Position numbers and translations under genes: made by a program. A stretch of DNA of 64,000 nucleotides, from NCBI GenBank assembly GCA_018889975.1, contig CP076546.1:3472001-3536000 (forward strand), given 5' to 3'. A model generated the notes under the pieces. The model was not told the origin of the DNA and made no database searches. It saw only the letters and a list, made by a program, of their open reading frames with translations. Shown in pieces: positions 41,744 through 46,409 of this stretch. Within the stretch, counting starts at the first letter, position 1, and each line of letters begins with the position of its first letter. Source of the stretch: Bacillus sp. NP157. GTDB taxonomy: Bacteria > Pseudomonadota > Gammaproteobacteria > Xanthomonadales > Rhodanobacteraceae.

Positions 41744-44644
41744 TCACTTTGCAGCCGGTTTCGCCACGGTGTGTGCGGCCTTTGCGGGCGACTTCACCGG
41801 CGACTTCGCCGGGTTGCCATCCGCATCCACCACCTCGACCACGCCCAGGTTGAGGGCACGCACCGGCGCTTCGATCTTGCGCAGGTCGCCCACGATCACC
41901 CAGGTGATCGCATCGGGCTTCATCACCTGCGAGATCGCGGCTTCGGCACCCTTCTGGTTGACCGCTTCGATGCGCGGCTTGAGCGTCTGCACGTAGTCGT
42001 CCGGGCGGTTGTAGATGACGATGCCGTTCATCGCACCGAGCACCGCGCCGGTGGTCTCGAAGCTGCCCGGGAGGGCACGCACGCGCTGCGCACGGATCTT
42101 CTCGACTTCTTCGTCGGTCAACGGCTTCGCGCCGATGACGTCGCGCGACTCCTTGAGGATCTCCGCAGCGGACTCGGCCGTCTTGTCGGTCTGCACCGAC
42201 GCGTACATGAGCACGGGACGCTGGCCCTGGGCATCGGTGAGGATGCTGTGCGCACCGTAGGCCCAACGCTTGTCCTCGCGCAGGTTCATGTTGAGGCGCG
42301 AGGTGAAGCTGCCGCCGAAGGCACCGTTGGCGATGCCGAGGTCGATCGCGTCCTTTGCCTTGGTCGACGGCGCCAGCAGGCCGGCAAGGACCAGCGACTG
42401 CGGAGCATCCGGACGGTCGATCAGGAACACGCGCGGCTTCGGCTGGGCGGCAACCTCACCGATGTTCTTCTTCGGGATGGCGGACGACGGTGCCGTCCAG
42501 TCGCCGAAGACGGCATCCAGCTGGGGCAGGATCTGCGCCAGCGTGGTGTCGCCAGCGACCAGGATCCGGACGTTGTCCGGGCGCAGGTAGTCGTGCTGGA
42601 ACGTTGAGAGGTCCGCCGCGGTGAGCGAGGCGATGCCTTCTTCCGAACCGCTGCCGGTGAACGGAATGCCGTAGGCGTGGTGCTTGCCATACAGCAGCGG
42701 CGGCATGGAGCGCAGCGCCAGGCCGTCGGAGTCGGTCTTCTCCTGCGCGATGCCGGCGATCCACTGCCCACGGATGCGCTCGATGTCTTCCGACTTGAAG
42801 GCGGGATTCCGCGCGATGTCGGCGAACAGTTCTAGCGACGGACGAAGCTCGCTGTTCAGGGCGTTGAGGCCGACGCTGCAGGTATCCAGCGAGCAGCTCG
42901 AACCGATGATCGCGCCCAGCCGTTCCTTGCGTTCGGCCACGGCCACCGAGTCCAGCGACTTCGTGCTTTCGTCGAGCAGCTGTGCGGTGAACGCCGCGGT
43001 GCCGAGCTTGCGGCCCTGGTCGGCGGCGTAGCCCGCATCGAACAGCAGTTGCACCTGGGTGACCGGCACGGTGTGGCGCTCGGCCAGCACCACTTCGATG
43101 CCGTTCTTGAGCTTGCCGCGCTGCAGGTTCGGGAACGACAGGTTCGGGAACGTCGACACGGTGGGTACGCCACCGCTGCGATCGATGCCCGCCTTGGCCA
43201 CCGTATAGGTCTTCGCCGCCGGCATGACGGCCGTCGGACGGCCCGGTGCATCCGACAGGCTGCTGACGGCCTTGTCTTCGGCGGCGGGATCGAAGCCCTT
43301 CGGCGCCGGCAGCACGGTCAGCGTGTAGCTGCCCTTGCCGAGCCAGTTCTTCGAGGCACCGAGGACCGACGCGACCGTCGCGGCCTGCGCACGCGAAAGG
43401 TCTTTCTTGTAGGCCTCCGGATCGTTCCGGTAGACCTGGCCTTCGGCGAGGATGACCGCCTTGCCACCGAAGCCACCGACCTTCTCCAGCCCGCGCACGA
43501 AGCCGGCACGGTTGACCACCTTGGCACGGGCCAGTTCGTCGTCGGTCGGCCCCTTGGCGAGGAATTCGTTCCACACGTCGGCCACGGCGGCCTCGACCTT
43601 CGCGGGGTCGACGCCCTTCTTCACGTCCACCGACAGCTGCACCTGGCTGGACAAGGCGAACGGCGAGATGCCGACGCTGACGTCATCGGCCAGGTTGTCC
43701 TTGTAGACGAGGCGCTGGTAGAGGCGGGACGTCTTGCCGCCACCAAGCACCGTGGTGGCGAGGTCGAGGTTGATCGCGTCGTCGGTGCCCAGCTGCGGGG
43801 CGATCCACGTGCGCACGATGCGGGTCTGCGCGACCTGGTCGTGCTGGATGCCCCGGGTGGATTTCTCCAGCGGCGTGATCCACGCCTGCTGGCGCGGCAC
43901 CGGCGGGCCGGCAGGGATGTCGCCGAAGTACTTCTCGGCCTTTTCCTTCGCCTGCGCCTCGGTGATGTCACCGGCCAGCACCAGCGTGGTGTTGGCGGCG
44001 CCGTAGTAATCGTGGAACCACTGCTTCACGTCGCCGAGCGAGGCAGCGTCGAGGTCGACCATCGAGCCGACCGTTTCGTGGTGATAGGGGTGGTTGGCGG
44101 GATAGGTGTTGAGCAGCACGTTCTCGTCCACGCGGCCATAGGGGCGATTCTCGCCCTGGCGCTTTTCGTTCTGGACGACACCGCGCTGGGTATCCAGCTC
44201 CTTCTGGCCGATGGCACCGAGGAGATGGCCCATGCGATCGGATTCCATCCACAGGGCCATGTCGACCGCGGTGGTCGGCACGGTCTCGAAGTAGTTGGTG
44301 CGATCGAACCAGGTCGTGCCGTTCAGATCCGTGGCGCCAGCCACTTCGAACGGTTTGAAATACGTGCCCTGGTGGTTCTCGGAGCCCGAGAACATCAGGT
44401 GCTCGAACAGATGGGCGAAGCCGGTCTTGCCCTTCGGCTCGTCGGCCGAACCGACGTGGTACCAGATGCTGACCGCGACCACGGGGGCCTTGTGGTCTTC
44501 GTGCACGACCACGGTCAGGCCATTCGGCAGCTGGAAGCGCTTGTAAGGGATGTCGGGGATGCCGTCGGCGGAGGGAGTAGCCGCTGAGGCGGCACCGGCG
44601 ACGGACATCAGCCCTGCGGCCAGCAGGGCGAGGCGTTTCTTCAT
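41744..44644 (-). CDS. M16 family metallopeptidase, two-domain, exported
   Basis: The 966-residue protein has a Sec signal peptide (LALLAAGLMSVAGAASA). The N-terminal half carries the inverted zinc motif HLFEH in GFAHLFEHLMFSGSENHQGT and the downstream glutamate region. The second half (from about residue 500) is a related non-catalytic domain. This is the pitrilysin/insulinase layout of periplasmic peptidases that degrade small peptides. It is divergent from the sigma-54 micro-protein locus. Confidence 0.93.
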   Translation of the reverse strand: MKKRLALLAAGLMSVAGAASAATPSADGIPDIPYKRFQLPNGLTVVVHEDHKAPVVAVSIWYHVGSADEPKGKTGFAHLFEHLMFSGSENHQGTYFKPFEVAGATDLNGTTWFDRTNYFETVPTTAVDMALWMESDRMGHLLGAIGQKELDTQRGVVQNEKRQGENRPYGRVDENVLLNTYPANHPYHHETVGSMVDLDAASLGDVKQWFHDYYGAANTTLVLAGDITEAQAKEKAEKYFGDIPAGPPVPRQQAWITPLEKSTRGIQHDQVAQTRIVRTWIAPQLGTDDAINLDLATTVLGGGKTSRLYQRLVYKDNLADDVSVGISPFALSSQVQLSVDVKKGVDPAKVEAAVADVWNEFLAKGPTDDELARAKVVNRAGFVRGLEKVGGFGGKAVILAEGQVYRNDPEAYKKDLSRAQAATVASVLGASKNWLGKGSYTLTVLPAPKGFDPAAEDKAVSSLSDAPGRPTAVMPAAKTYTVAKAGIDRSGGVPTVSTFPNLSFPNLQRGKLKNGIEVVLAERHTVPVTQVQLLFDAGYAADQGRKLGTAAFTAQLLDESTKSLDSVAVAERKERLGAIIGSSCSLDTCSVGLNALNSELRPSLELFADIARNPAFKSEDIERIRGQWIAGIAQEKTDSDGLALRSMPPLLYGKHHAYGIPFTGSGSEEGIASLTAADLSTFQHDYLRPDNVRILVAGDTTLAQILPQLDAVFGDWTAPSSAIPKKNIGEVAAQPKPRVFLIDRPDAPQSLVLAGLLAPSTKAKDAIDLGIANGAFGGSFTSRLNMNLREDKRWAYGAHSILTDAQGQRPVLMYASVQTDKTAESAAEILKESRDVIGAKPLTDEEVEKIRAQRVRALPGSFETTGAVLGAMNGIVIYNRPDDYVQTLKPRIEAVNQKGAEAAISQVMKPDAITWVIVGDLRKIEAPVRALNLGVVEVVDADGNPAKSPVKSPAKAAHTVAKPAAK

Positions 44645-44732
44645 GCACGGCTCCTGGGGCCCTCATGGCCCGTTGATCCCCCGAGGCTATCCGGTGCGAA
44701 CCTTCCGACGCAATCGGCGGCACGTCATGGCC

Positions 44733-44773
44733 GCGGACGGTGTCCGCTTACCGGGTGCCGGTGTCCGCGGACA
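44733..44773. promoter_or_regulatory. Two palindromes, candidate enhancer sites for a sigma-54 activator
   Basis: The first dyad is GCGGAC-GGT-GTCCGC (44733-44747) and the second is the perfect palindrome TGTCCGCGGACA (44762-44773). Both are built from the same half-site GTCCGC. They lie 66-107 bases upstream of the sigma-54 promoter, a normal distance for NtrC/PspF-type activator binding. They also lie about 90-130 bases upstream of the divergent M16 gene. Confidence 0.6.
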
Positions 44774-44839
44774 GGGGCACAAGAAAGCACCTACCTGACA
44801 AATCTCATACGAATCAGCTGATTGGCGCCTCTGAAAAGA

Positions 44840-44854
44840 TGGCACGGCGTTTGC
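44840..44854 (+). promoter_or_regulatory. Sigma-54 (RpoN) promoter
   Basis: TGGCACG-GCGT-TTGC has the invariant GG and GC at the correct 10-base spacing and matches the -24/-12 consensus TGGCAC-N5-TTGC fully. It is oriented toward the two micro-protein genes; predicted transcription would begin near 44866, about 47 bases before the first start codon. Confidence 0.75.
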
Positions 44855-44912
44855 GTTACTAAGCGTGCCCCGGGGACATCGCCCCGACCCAACGCCCTAT
44901 CAAGAGAACGCC

Positions 44913-44996
44913 ATGAAATACGAACTGCCGATCCTCGCCAGCCTGCTCGCCACCACGATGGTCATCTGCGTCCTTGCCCTCGGCGGCATGGTCTGA
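44913..44996 (+). CDS. Micro-protein 1, single-span membrane peptide
   Basis: This 27-residue ORF begins MKYELPILASLLATTMVICV and is hydrophobic to its end (LALGGMV). AAGAGAACG lies just upstream as a weak ribosome site. It shares the start pattern M-x-x-E-L and the Leu-rich span with the next ORF, so the two look like relatives. It lies directly downstream of the sigma-54 promoter. The function is unknown; an inner-membrane stress peptide is plausible but speculative. Confidence 0.55.
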   Translation: MKYELPILASLLATTMVICVLALGGMV

Positions 44997-45025
44997 CCCC
45001 GGCCCCTTCTTCAAGGAACCCTGCC

Positions 45026-45217
45026 ATGAACCACGAACTTTTGATGCTCCGTAGCCTGCTCGTCGCCTCGCTGCTGGTGTGCGGTCTCATCCTCGGCAAC
45101 ATGCTGACCTACCAGGGCAACCCGGTGCAGCTGGCCAGCAAGGGCACGGTCGGTGCCGTCGCCAACCGCTGCGCCCTGCCCCCGGATGGCATCGTTTGCC
45201 CGCGCGCGGCGGCATAA
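45026..45217 (+). CDS. Micro-protein 2, membrane-anchored
   Basis: The 63-residue product begins MNHELLMLRSLLVASLLVCG and has one membrane span to about residue 28, then a polar tail with two cysteines (C49 and C58) that could form a disulphide in the periplasm. AAGGAA lies seven bases upstream. It follows micro-protein 1 by 29 bases and overlaps nothing. I do not recognise the family. Expression is probably sigma-54 dependent through the upstream promoter. Confidence 0.65.
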   Translation: MNHELLMLRSLLVASLLVCGLILGNMLTYQGNPVQLASKGTVGAVANRCALPPDGIVCPRAAA

Positions 45218-45224
45218 TGGGGGC

Positions 45225-45689
45225 ATGCCCCACGTCATCCTGTTCCGACCCGAGATTCCGCCCAACACGGGCAATGTGATTCGCCTCTGCGCCAACACGG
45301 GCGCGACGCTGCACCTGGTACGTCCGTTGGGCTTCGAGCTGGACGACACGCGCCTGCGCCGCGCAGGGCTGGACTACCACGAGTTCGCCCCGGTCGCCGT
45401 CCACGACGACCTCGACGCCTGCCTCGCCGCCATTGGCCACCCCCGGGTATTCGCCTTCTCCACCCGCGGCAAGCACCTGCACACCGACGTGGCGTACGCC
45501 GAGGGCGATGCCCTGCTGTTTGGCTGCGAAACCGCCGGCCTGCCCGACGATGTCCTCGATGCGATTCCGGAAGCCCAGCGCATCCGACTGCCCATGCGCC
45601 CGGGCAATCGCAGCCTGAACCTGTCCAACGCGGTCGCGGTGGCCGTGTTTGAAACCTGGCGCCAGGCGGGCTTCGACGGCGCGGGCTGA
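45225..45689 (+). CDS. trmL: tRNA (cytidine(34)-2'-O)-methyltransferase
   Basis: This SPOUT-fold enzyme methylates the wobble base of tRNA-Leu isoacceptors. The 154-residue product starts MPHVILFRPEIPPNTGNVIR and has the knot motifs LLFGCETAGLP and RLPMRPGNRSLNLSNAVAV, all diagnostic of TrmL. It begins seven bases after micro-protein 2 and may be reached by the same transcript. An upstream start inside micro-protein 2 was rejected. Confidence 0.95.
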   Translation: MPHVILFRPEIPPNTGNVIRLCANTGATLHLVRPLGFELDDTRLRRAGLDYHEFAPVAVHDDLDACLAAIGHPRVFAFSTRGKHLHTDVAYAEGDALLFGCETAGLPDDVLDAIPEAQRIRLPMRPGNRSLNLSNAVAVAVFETWRQAGFDGAG

Positions 45690-45740
45690 CCGCGACAACA
45701 CGGATAGGTCGCCACGGGAGCCACGGGCTACAATCGCTGC

Positions 45741-46409
45741 ATGACTCCCGAGCGCTCCCCGGCCGACGCTGGCCCGAACCGTTTCCTGCCCCGTCCCCTT
45801 CGCGTCCTCGCCGGACGCGCCATGGAAGCCGCGCTCAATCGCGCCGTGGACCTGGATCCGGATACCCGCACGCGACTGGACGTGCTCGATGGCCGCAGCG
45901 TGCAGGTGCACCTGAGCGGACCCGAGCTGGCCCTGCGCATCCGCGTGGAAAAAGGCCGGTTGCGCGTCGGGCCGCCGGAAGATGGCGGCAGCCTGCGCGT
46001 CACCGCGTCGCCCGGCAGCCTGCTGGCCATGGCGCTGCGCCGTGACGACGACGGCGTGGCCCCCGGCAAGGTGGACATCGCCGGCGATGCCGAACTTGCC
46101 CGCCGGCTGGAACGGCTCGCCCGCCAGTACGCACCCGATGTCGAAGAGGCCTTCGCGAAAACCTTTGGCGACACGCTGGGCGTGGCGCTGGCGAAGGCAC
46201 TGCGCGAAGGCCTCGCGCATGCCCGGGAAACCGGCAAGCACCTCGTCGAGGACGGCGCGGACTGGCTGCGCGACGAAGGCCGCGTGGCCGTGGCACCGGG
46301 CGAAGTCGATGCCTTCCTCGATGGCGTGGACACGGTGCGCGAGCGCACCGAACGACTGGAGGCGCGCATCGCCCGCCTGCAGCGCTCGCTGAAGGGGACC
46401 GGCGCATGA
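45741..46409 (+). CDS. ubiJ: Ubiquinone biosynthesis accessory factor UbiJ
   Basis: The 222-residue product has an N-terminal SCP2-type lipid-binding domain ([20 protein letters not shown]) and a C-terminal helical part ([20 protein letters not shown]). UbiJ helps organise the soluble Ubi complex and binds ubiquinone intermediates. It overlaps ubiB by four bases (ATGA). Pairing with ubiB is the standard arrangement and supports the assignment despite weak family conservation. Confidence 0.88.

Follow-up and report, generated by a model that had tools for sequence, protein, structure and literature searches.

The two membrane micro-proteins of 27 and 63 residues encoded in this stretch very probably belong to an autoregulated sigma-54 two-component envelope regulon, which includes a lineage-specific family of such micro-proteins and, within the genus, probable IHF-assisted looping. 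We base this explanation on sites, promoters, conservation, a target list, coding constraint, and co-occurrence, all of which are observed here. An earlier sequence-only reading had proposed a sigma-54 promoter with paired enhancer sites, controlled by an unlinked activator and belonging to an envelope-stress or transport response, and its interpretation as a whole is supported. Beyond its reach were the conservation of the regulon, the IHF-like site found within the genus, the multi-copy nature of the peptide family, and a trmL gene directly after the micro-proteins.

The promoter locus in the window

The window, meaning the whole stretch of DNA analyzed, is 64 kb out of the single 4,875,246-bp contig of a Luteibacter-type genome. 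The locus contains the following features.

41744..44644, minus strand: M16 peptidase gene (Pfam), divergent; a conserved neighbor
44733..44747, unstranded: distal enhancer dyad GCGGACGGTGTCCGC (GCGGAC-GGT-GTCCGC), with a TGTCCG half-site at 44741-44746
44762..44773, unstranded: proximal enhancer palindrome TGTCCGCGGACA, proposed site of an NtrC-type regulator
44796..44824, plus strand: conserved block TGACAAATCTCATACGAATCAGCTGATTG, from the alignment of 22 loci
44812-44824, within the conserved block: IHF-like match AATCAGCTGATTG, fitting the consensus WATCARNNNNTTR
44840..44854, plus strand: -24/-12 promoter TGGCACGGCGTTTGC, expected start near 44866
44913..44996, plus strand: 27-residue membrane micro-protein MKYELPILASLLATTMVICVLALGGMV, starting MKYEL
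45026..45217, plus strand: 63-residue micro-protein, starting MNHEL; helix 2-28, tail with C49 and C58
45225..45689, plus strand: SpoU methylase gene of the trmL type, probably third in the micro-protein transcript

Sigma-54 promoters require a distant activator bound at enhancer-type sites. The -24/-12 element claimed at 44840-44854 lies exactly there as TGGCACGGCGTTTGC, with GG at -24, GC at -12, and 10 bases between them, and the twin dyads claimed upstream have their coordinates right base for base. The spelling of the palindrome had to be corrected from TGTCC-N-GGACA to TGTCC-GC-GGACA. Both short ORFs carry the M-x-x-E-L start that had been pointed out, together with one hydrophobic segment each. 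The trmL start follows the stop of the 63-residue ORF by 7 bases in the window, and the gene order of M16 peptidase, micro-protein, and trmL is kept in all 30 loci that were found by protein similarity.

Both strands of the window contain a single match to TGGC[AC]CG....NTGC, at 44840-44854, and the searched -24/-12 form has no match on the minus strand toward the M16 gene. A search of 44640-45760 found no sigma-70-type promoter. With one mismatch allowed, the -24/-12 element has 2 matches in the window (2.44 expected), and with two mismatches allowed the palindrome has 6 (5.94 expected). Since degenerate forms of either element occur there at chance frequency, the window alone is unable to prove the observation. 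An Rfam search of 44600-45300 returned one eukaryotic IRES model at 17.4 bits (gathering threshold 40 bits), which we rejected as a chance match.

Palindrome and promoter across the genome

The sequence-only reading had suggested searching the genome for the palindrome. Exact TGTCCGCGGACA occurs in 8 copies, and the same pattern read backwards in 1. One-mismatch palindromes add 13 sites for the motif and 15 for the control; the excess thus vanishes once a mismatch is allowed, and only the exact palindrome is enriched. A -24/-12 element lies downstream of every exact copy (8/8), its first G being 33-80 bp away. The pattern used for this count, GGC[AC]C[GT]....NTGC, was written after the sites had been read, and its background is about 0.7% per site in either orientation, as estimated on 224,915 bp in which most of these sites are contained. 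Each of the eight copies is also preceded, at no more than 35 bp, by an extra TGTCC or GGACA half-site. The genome has an rpoN gene (one PF04552 match, 228.3 bits). A relaxed enhancer, GTCCNNGGAC, combined with a promoter at a gap of 33-63 bp was tried as well, and it retrieved 2 sites in this genome, both of them exact palindromes.

The pairing recurs in relatives. Palindrome and promoter occur together in 23/23 genomes of the genus (reversed control 0/23) and in 99/147 genomes of the family (reversed control 0 among the matches listed). The significance of the combination rests on these counts from the genome and its relatives rather than on the window, and they provide comparative support for the proposed sigma-54 promoter with paired enhancer sites.

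Conserved spacing and an IHF-like site

The window-type locus could be read in 22 of the 23 genus genomes; the remaining one has the micro-protein, a palindrome that differs by one base, and the promoter TGGCATG. A TGTCCG half-site precedes the proximal one by 21 bp, or two helical turns, in 22/22 aligned genus loci, and it is invariant although it was not selected for. Among the 57 distinct micro-protein promoters with an exact palindrome, the gap from palindrome to promoter is always 65-69 bp (57/57).

The 22-locus alignment also shows strong conservation of the block TGACAAAYCTCAT...AATCAGCTGATTG, which lies between enhancer and promoter. The segment AATCAGCTGATTG at 44812-44824 is a predicted IHF site by its sequence, judged against WATCARNNNNTTR, which we take to be the IHF consensus. 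Differences among the 22 loci fall at positions that this consensus permits, except for one base in a single locus (L172). Just 5' of the IHF-like core, TGACAAATCTCAT (44796-44808) is nearly invariant in the 22 loci, beyond what the IHF consensus needs.

A full consensus match is present in 26 of the 57 micro-protein promoters, 21 of the 26 coming from this genus, against a mean of 0.11 and a maximum of 3 in mononucleotide shuffles of the same promoters. At 8 or 9 of the 9 positions, matches are found in 30/57 micro-protein promoters, 82/106 MacA-type promoters (shuffles 4.5), and 10/36 other promoters (shuffles 1.2); the related genomes among these promoters are not independent. Outside the genus, only 5/17 long-type promoters have the exact IHF-like site. 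The site is missing from promoters of a class of 43-52-residue micro-proteins (L002, L004, L197-L203, L242, L243, L245, L250), and many promoters of this class share an element around AATGGCT between enhancer and promoter.

Regulon targets

We chose ORFs behind the eight promoters by codon score, as a length-based choice had taken many antisense frames. One run comprises a MacA-like adaptor, an ATPase, six permease-like ORFs, an NtrC-type regulator, and a kinase; two of the six permease-like ORFs were checked in Pfam and matched MacB_PCD and FtsX. Further targets are a second MacB/FtsX permease pair (one of the two checked), a TolC-family protein (TIGR01844, 280.6 bits against a cut-off of 225.15), a secreted alpha/beta hydrolase, a secreted-looking 446-residue protein (L020:8145-9485), two 43-residue micro-proteins, and the 27- and 63-residue pair of the window. 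The 446-residue protein had no match in Pfam or NCBIfam, and against solved structures it gave a weak M61 aminopeptidase match (E 0.011). These targets share an exporter and envelope theme and lend comparative support to the envelope or transport response that had been suggested for the locus. The six permease-like ORFs lie between ATPase and regulator (L016:10218-16001, L034:2-1886), and the number of such ORFs before the regulator seems to depend on the genome.

A candidate activator and its kinase

The genome holds 11 Sigma54_activat matches, of which 8 are strong. Only one of these genes, at 247546-248877, lies less than 50 kb from an exact palindrome. It belongs to the exporter run, which begins behind the site at 237670 with its own palindrome and promoter, and it lies 9.9 kb downstream of that site. 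An NtrC-family gene beside a copy of the motif, which the sequence-only reading had told its readers to look for, was thus found. Measured along the contig, 3.27 Mb separate the candidate (G000:C1:247546-248877) from the window site at 3516762, in keeping with an unlinked activator. Its domains are PF00072 (REC), PF00158 (Sigma54_activat), and PF02954 (a Fis-type HTH, HTH_8), and it holds GAYTGA, a GAFTGA-type loop that we take to be a mark of the NtrC family; by these features it is an NtrC-family response regulator. In the accompanying kinase, about 35 residues separate the two predicted helices, which leaves little space for a sensor domain on the outside.

A scan of named genome contigs by DNA pattern only retrieved at least 119 stretches, a few of which are probably chance matches in distant taxa. 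In 96 of the 119 stretches listed, a MacA-like gene is the first after the site (tblastn); of the other 23, six start with a permease match and four have less than 200 bp downstream. The exporter part recurs in records of Xanthomonas, Stenotrophomonas, Pseudoxanthomonas, Lysobacter, Tahibacter, Dyella, and Roseateles. The regulator is found downstream in 23/119 listed stretches at 55-75% identity, most stretches being too short to tell, and among those listed MacA-type loci with at least 6.5 kb of downstream sequence have it in 11/14. Eight exceptions, chosen by hand, were followed by a whole-genome search, and all eight genomes have a regulator that is 66-85% identical; in 6/8, assuming that both lie on one contig, its position and strand are those expected if the same run continues 8-16 kb downstream. 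In the other two, both Burkholderiales (L097, L055), position and strand do not agree with the exporter run. The pattern also stands before ExbB/TolQ-like ORFs in L085, L099, and L109 (Myxococcales and two "Proteobacteria bacterium" records), which may be a coincidence or point to a distant regulon.

In the recognition helix, 14/14 aligned regulators share the segment SRQALYRR, which differs in five other activators compared, out of seven loci given. As judged from sequence, the regulator of the exporter run is the likely activator of the window promoter.

A family of membrane micro-proteins

The 27- and 63-residue proteins and the two 43-residue ones align with 7 invariant columns. Among the 22 genus loci, the 63-residue form is present in all and the 27-residue ORF in 18, leaving four with the long form alone. 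Both ORFs show coding constraint: pN/pS is 0.56 for the 27-residue ORF (18 loci), against 0.95 and 1.35 in the shifted frames; over the initial 37 codons of the long ORF it is 0.30 (22 loci), against 0.88 and 5.06. Cysteines C49 and C58 are invariant in 23/23 aligned long members. AlphaFold predicts a helix at residues 2-28 of the 63-residue protein followed by a low-confidence tail (mean pLDDT 64.4), and the 27-residue form is predicted to be a membrane helix over nearly its whole length. The helix and the Cys motif are the best-conserved parts, and the tails are variable.

Searches with the 27- and 63-residue proteins returned 0 families in Pfam, and searches with these two and one 43-residue protein returned 0 in NCBIfam. 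A profile of the family retrieved nothing useful from solved structures (best E 0.22). A database search with the long form retrieved 255 relatives and one with the 43-residue form 34, and the named close relatives of the 63-residue protein are Luteibacter. No Pfam domain appears among the relatives listed (the best 120 of 255 for the long form). Those listed are called "hypothetical protein" save for three labeled as membrane pyrophosphatase, which we take as misnaming.

By profile search, 84/147 genomes of the bacterial family have members. The 30 best loci by protein similarity (12 in congeners, 18 in other genera) have a -24/-12 element in 30/30 and the exact palindrome in 29/30. Lower-ranked paralogs gave 36 ORF rows, some of which repeat an ORF (extended readings in L248, L251, L256, and L283; L282 repeats L279). 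A -24/-12 element lies within 450 bp in 32/36 of these rows, accompanied by a strict palindrome in 23/36. Rows that have a -24/-12 element but lack a strict palindrome number 12/36; of the four promoter-less rows, three are extended readings, and L284 is truly without promoter and palindrome.

In two Luteibacter genomes, the 43-residue gene is present as near-identical copies, three in G001 (L197-L199) and four in G022 (L200-L203), each with its own enhancer and promoter. In other genera, ORFs of the 43-52-residue class adjoin genes with NlpC/P60, beta-lactamase, metallo-beta-lactamase, or GH3 domains (L242:4290-12323, L243:3426-6323, L245:3657-7867, L255:3380-4984). This survey covered 15 regions chosen for their extra copies, several others of which are without such a neighbor.

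Among genomes with a regulator of at least 79% identity, 81/83 have the family, compared with 2/56 with a regulator at 65-76% and 1/8 with none at threshold (3/64 together); the three matches outside the close-regulator group are weak, and the counts are not independent because the pattern traces a single clade. Many genomes have the exporter and regulator but no detectable micro-proteins, so the micro-proteins are accessory rather than core. Most likely they act as modulators of the exporter or of the short-loop kinase.

Proposed mechanism and alternatives

In the model that we propose, the two-component system at the end of the MacA-like/ATPase/MacB-FtsX permease run would sense a condition of the cell envelope. 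Once phosphorylated, the NtrC-type regulator would bind the tandem TGTCCG-based sites, in this genus IHF would bend the DNA that separates these sites from the promoter, and the regulator would then drive RpoN polymerase at TGGCACG-N5-TGC. The predicted output includes the system's own exporter run, the further permease pair, the TolC-family channel, and secreted enzymes, along with several copies of small single-helix membrane proteins, among them the 27/63 pair of the window with trmL. The micro-proteins would most likely modulate the exporter or the short-loop kinase. In this model, we infer the contact between regulator and site, the role of IHF, the dependence on RpoN, the signal, and the function of the micro-proteins.

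Several other readings have to be weighed against it. The palindrome and the -24/-12-like sequence might be a chance combination, which in the window alone would agree with the chance-level frequency of degenerate matches to either element, but pairing in 8/8 copies at about 0.7% each, in 23/23 congeners (control 0/23), and at 30/30 protein-ranked loci reduces this probability to almost nothing. The short ORFs could instead form a non-functional leader, with the promoter serving trmL. This would suit the distance of 7 bases to trmL and the constant gene order in 30/30 loci; it conflicts with a pN/pS below 1 in the coding frame only, with the invariant tail cysteines, and with paralogs elsewhere that share the promoter type without trmL, and we consider it very improbable.

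It is also quite unlikely that the promoter is real yet its sites are bound by another sigma-54 activator. The 11 Sigma54_activat matches (8 strong) provide candidates, and the exporter runs of L097 and L055 were not found to contain the regulator. Against this, the gene at 247546 is the only one within 50 kb of an exact palindrome and stands in the same gene run, the linkage of regulator and site recurs in other genera, and SRQALYRR is constant in 14/14 regulators while differing in the five other activators compared. Unlikely, though less so, is the idea that the micro-proteins are cargo (e.g. signals or inhibitors) processed and exported by the co-regulated MacA/MacB/TolC-type exporter. The co-regulation itself, the scores of adaptor and ATPase toward darobactin exporter models (below cut-off), the multiple copies, and the variable tails would fit such a role, but membrane helix makes up nearly the whole of the 27-residue form, and the helix and Cys motif are the most conserved parts.

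We therefore retain the autoregulated envelope regulon with accessory membrane micro-proteins as the best explanation. A more specific version, which we put forward only tentatively, is that the micro-proteins are lineage-expanded membrane modulators acting on the short-loop kinase, the MacB-like permeases, or both, and that they tune or report exporter activity; the whole might then be a sigma-54 Gram-negative counterpart of Bce-type modules with micro-protein feedback.

Significance and comparison with known systems

With its sites, candidate activator and kinase, and targets in hand, the regulon is now testable. An unannotated micro-protein family can now be assigned to a promoter type and, as is likely, to a regulator and a setting, information that is usually missing for proteins of 27-70 residues. 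The position of the shorter class beside cell-wall hydrolase and beta-lactamase-fold genes in relatives makes its role testable through cell-wall stress. A search of open-access literature found no description of the regulon or the micro-proteins; the sole open-access paper with the string TGTCCGCGGACA concerns human CD164.

NtrC-family-activated sigma-54 promoters with IHF between enhancer and promoter are a textbook type, and the present system resembles it in the -24/-12 element, the tandem dyads about 70-110 bp upstream, the REC-AAA-HTH_8 regulator, and the IHF-like site in the genus. It differs in its site, TGTCCGCGGACA, and in its targets, an exporter and micro-proteins. The PrsK-PrsR regulon of PEP-CTERM/exosortase systems likewise pairs a sigma-54 response regulator and a kinase with surface-related targets, and PrsR is the regulator's best NCBIfam match. 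The identity with PrsR (TIGR02915) was nevertheless rejected at 341.4 bits against a cut-off of 502.6, and the kinase reaches 64.3 against 300 bits.

The MacAB-TolC and darobactin DarC/DarD exporters share with this regulon an adaptor, a separate ATPase, MacB_PCD/FtsX permeases, and a TolC-family protein. Here, the adaptor, ATPase, and permeases score below curated cut-offs, and the ATPase and several permeases are separate genes. Thus, we rejected the labels MacA (NF008606, 52.7 bits against 342), MacB (NF007826, 214.3 bits for the ATPase against 966, ATPase and permeases being separate ORFs), and DarC/DarD (77.5 against 450 and 256.2 against 375 bits). AcrZ, MgrB, and KdpF are small single-helix membrane proteins under a stress regulator or beside a pump, and the micro-proteins are alike in being short, single-helix, and probably either under stress-regulator control or near a pump; they differ in having multiple copies and no Pfam or NCBIfam family.

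The Bce-type exporter-sensor modules of Firmicutes combine FtsX-type permeases with a two-helix, short-loop kinase. The exporter run is similar, as far as can be read from its genes, in placing FtsX-type permeases beside a kinase whose two helices are joined by a short outer loop (about 35 residues). What sets it apart from these modules is an NtrC-type regulator with sigma-54, a MacA-like adaptor, and Gram-negative hosts.
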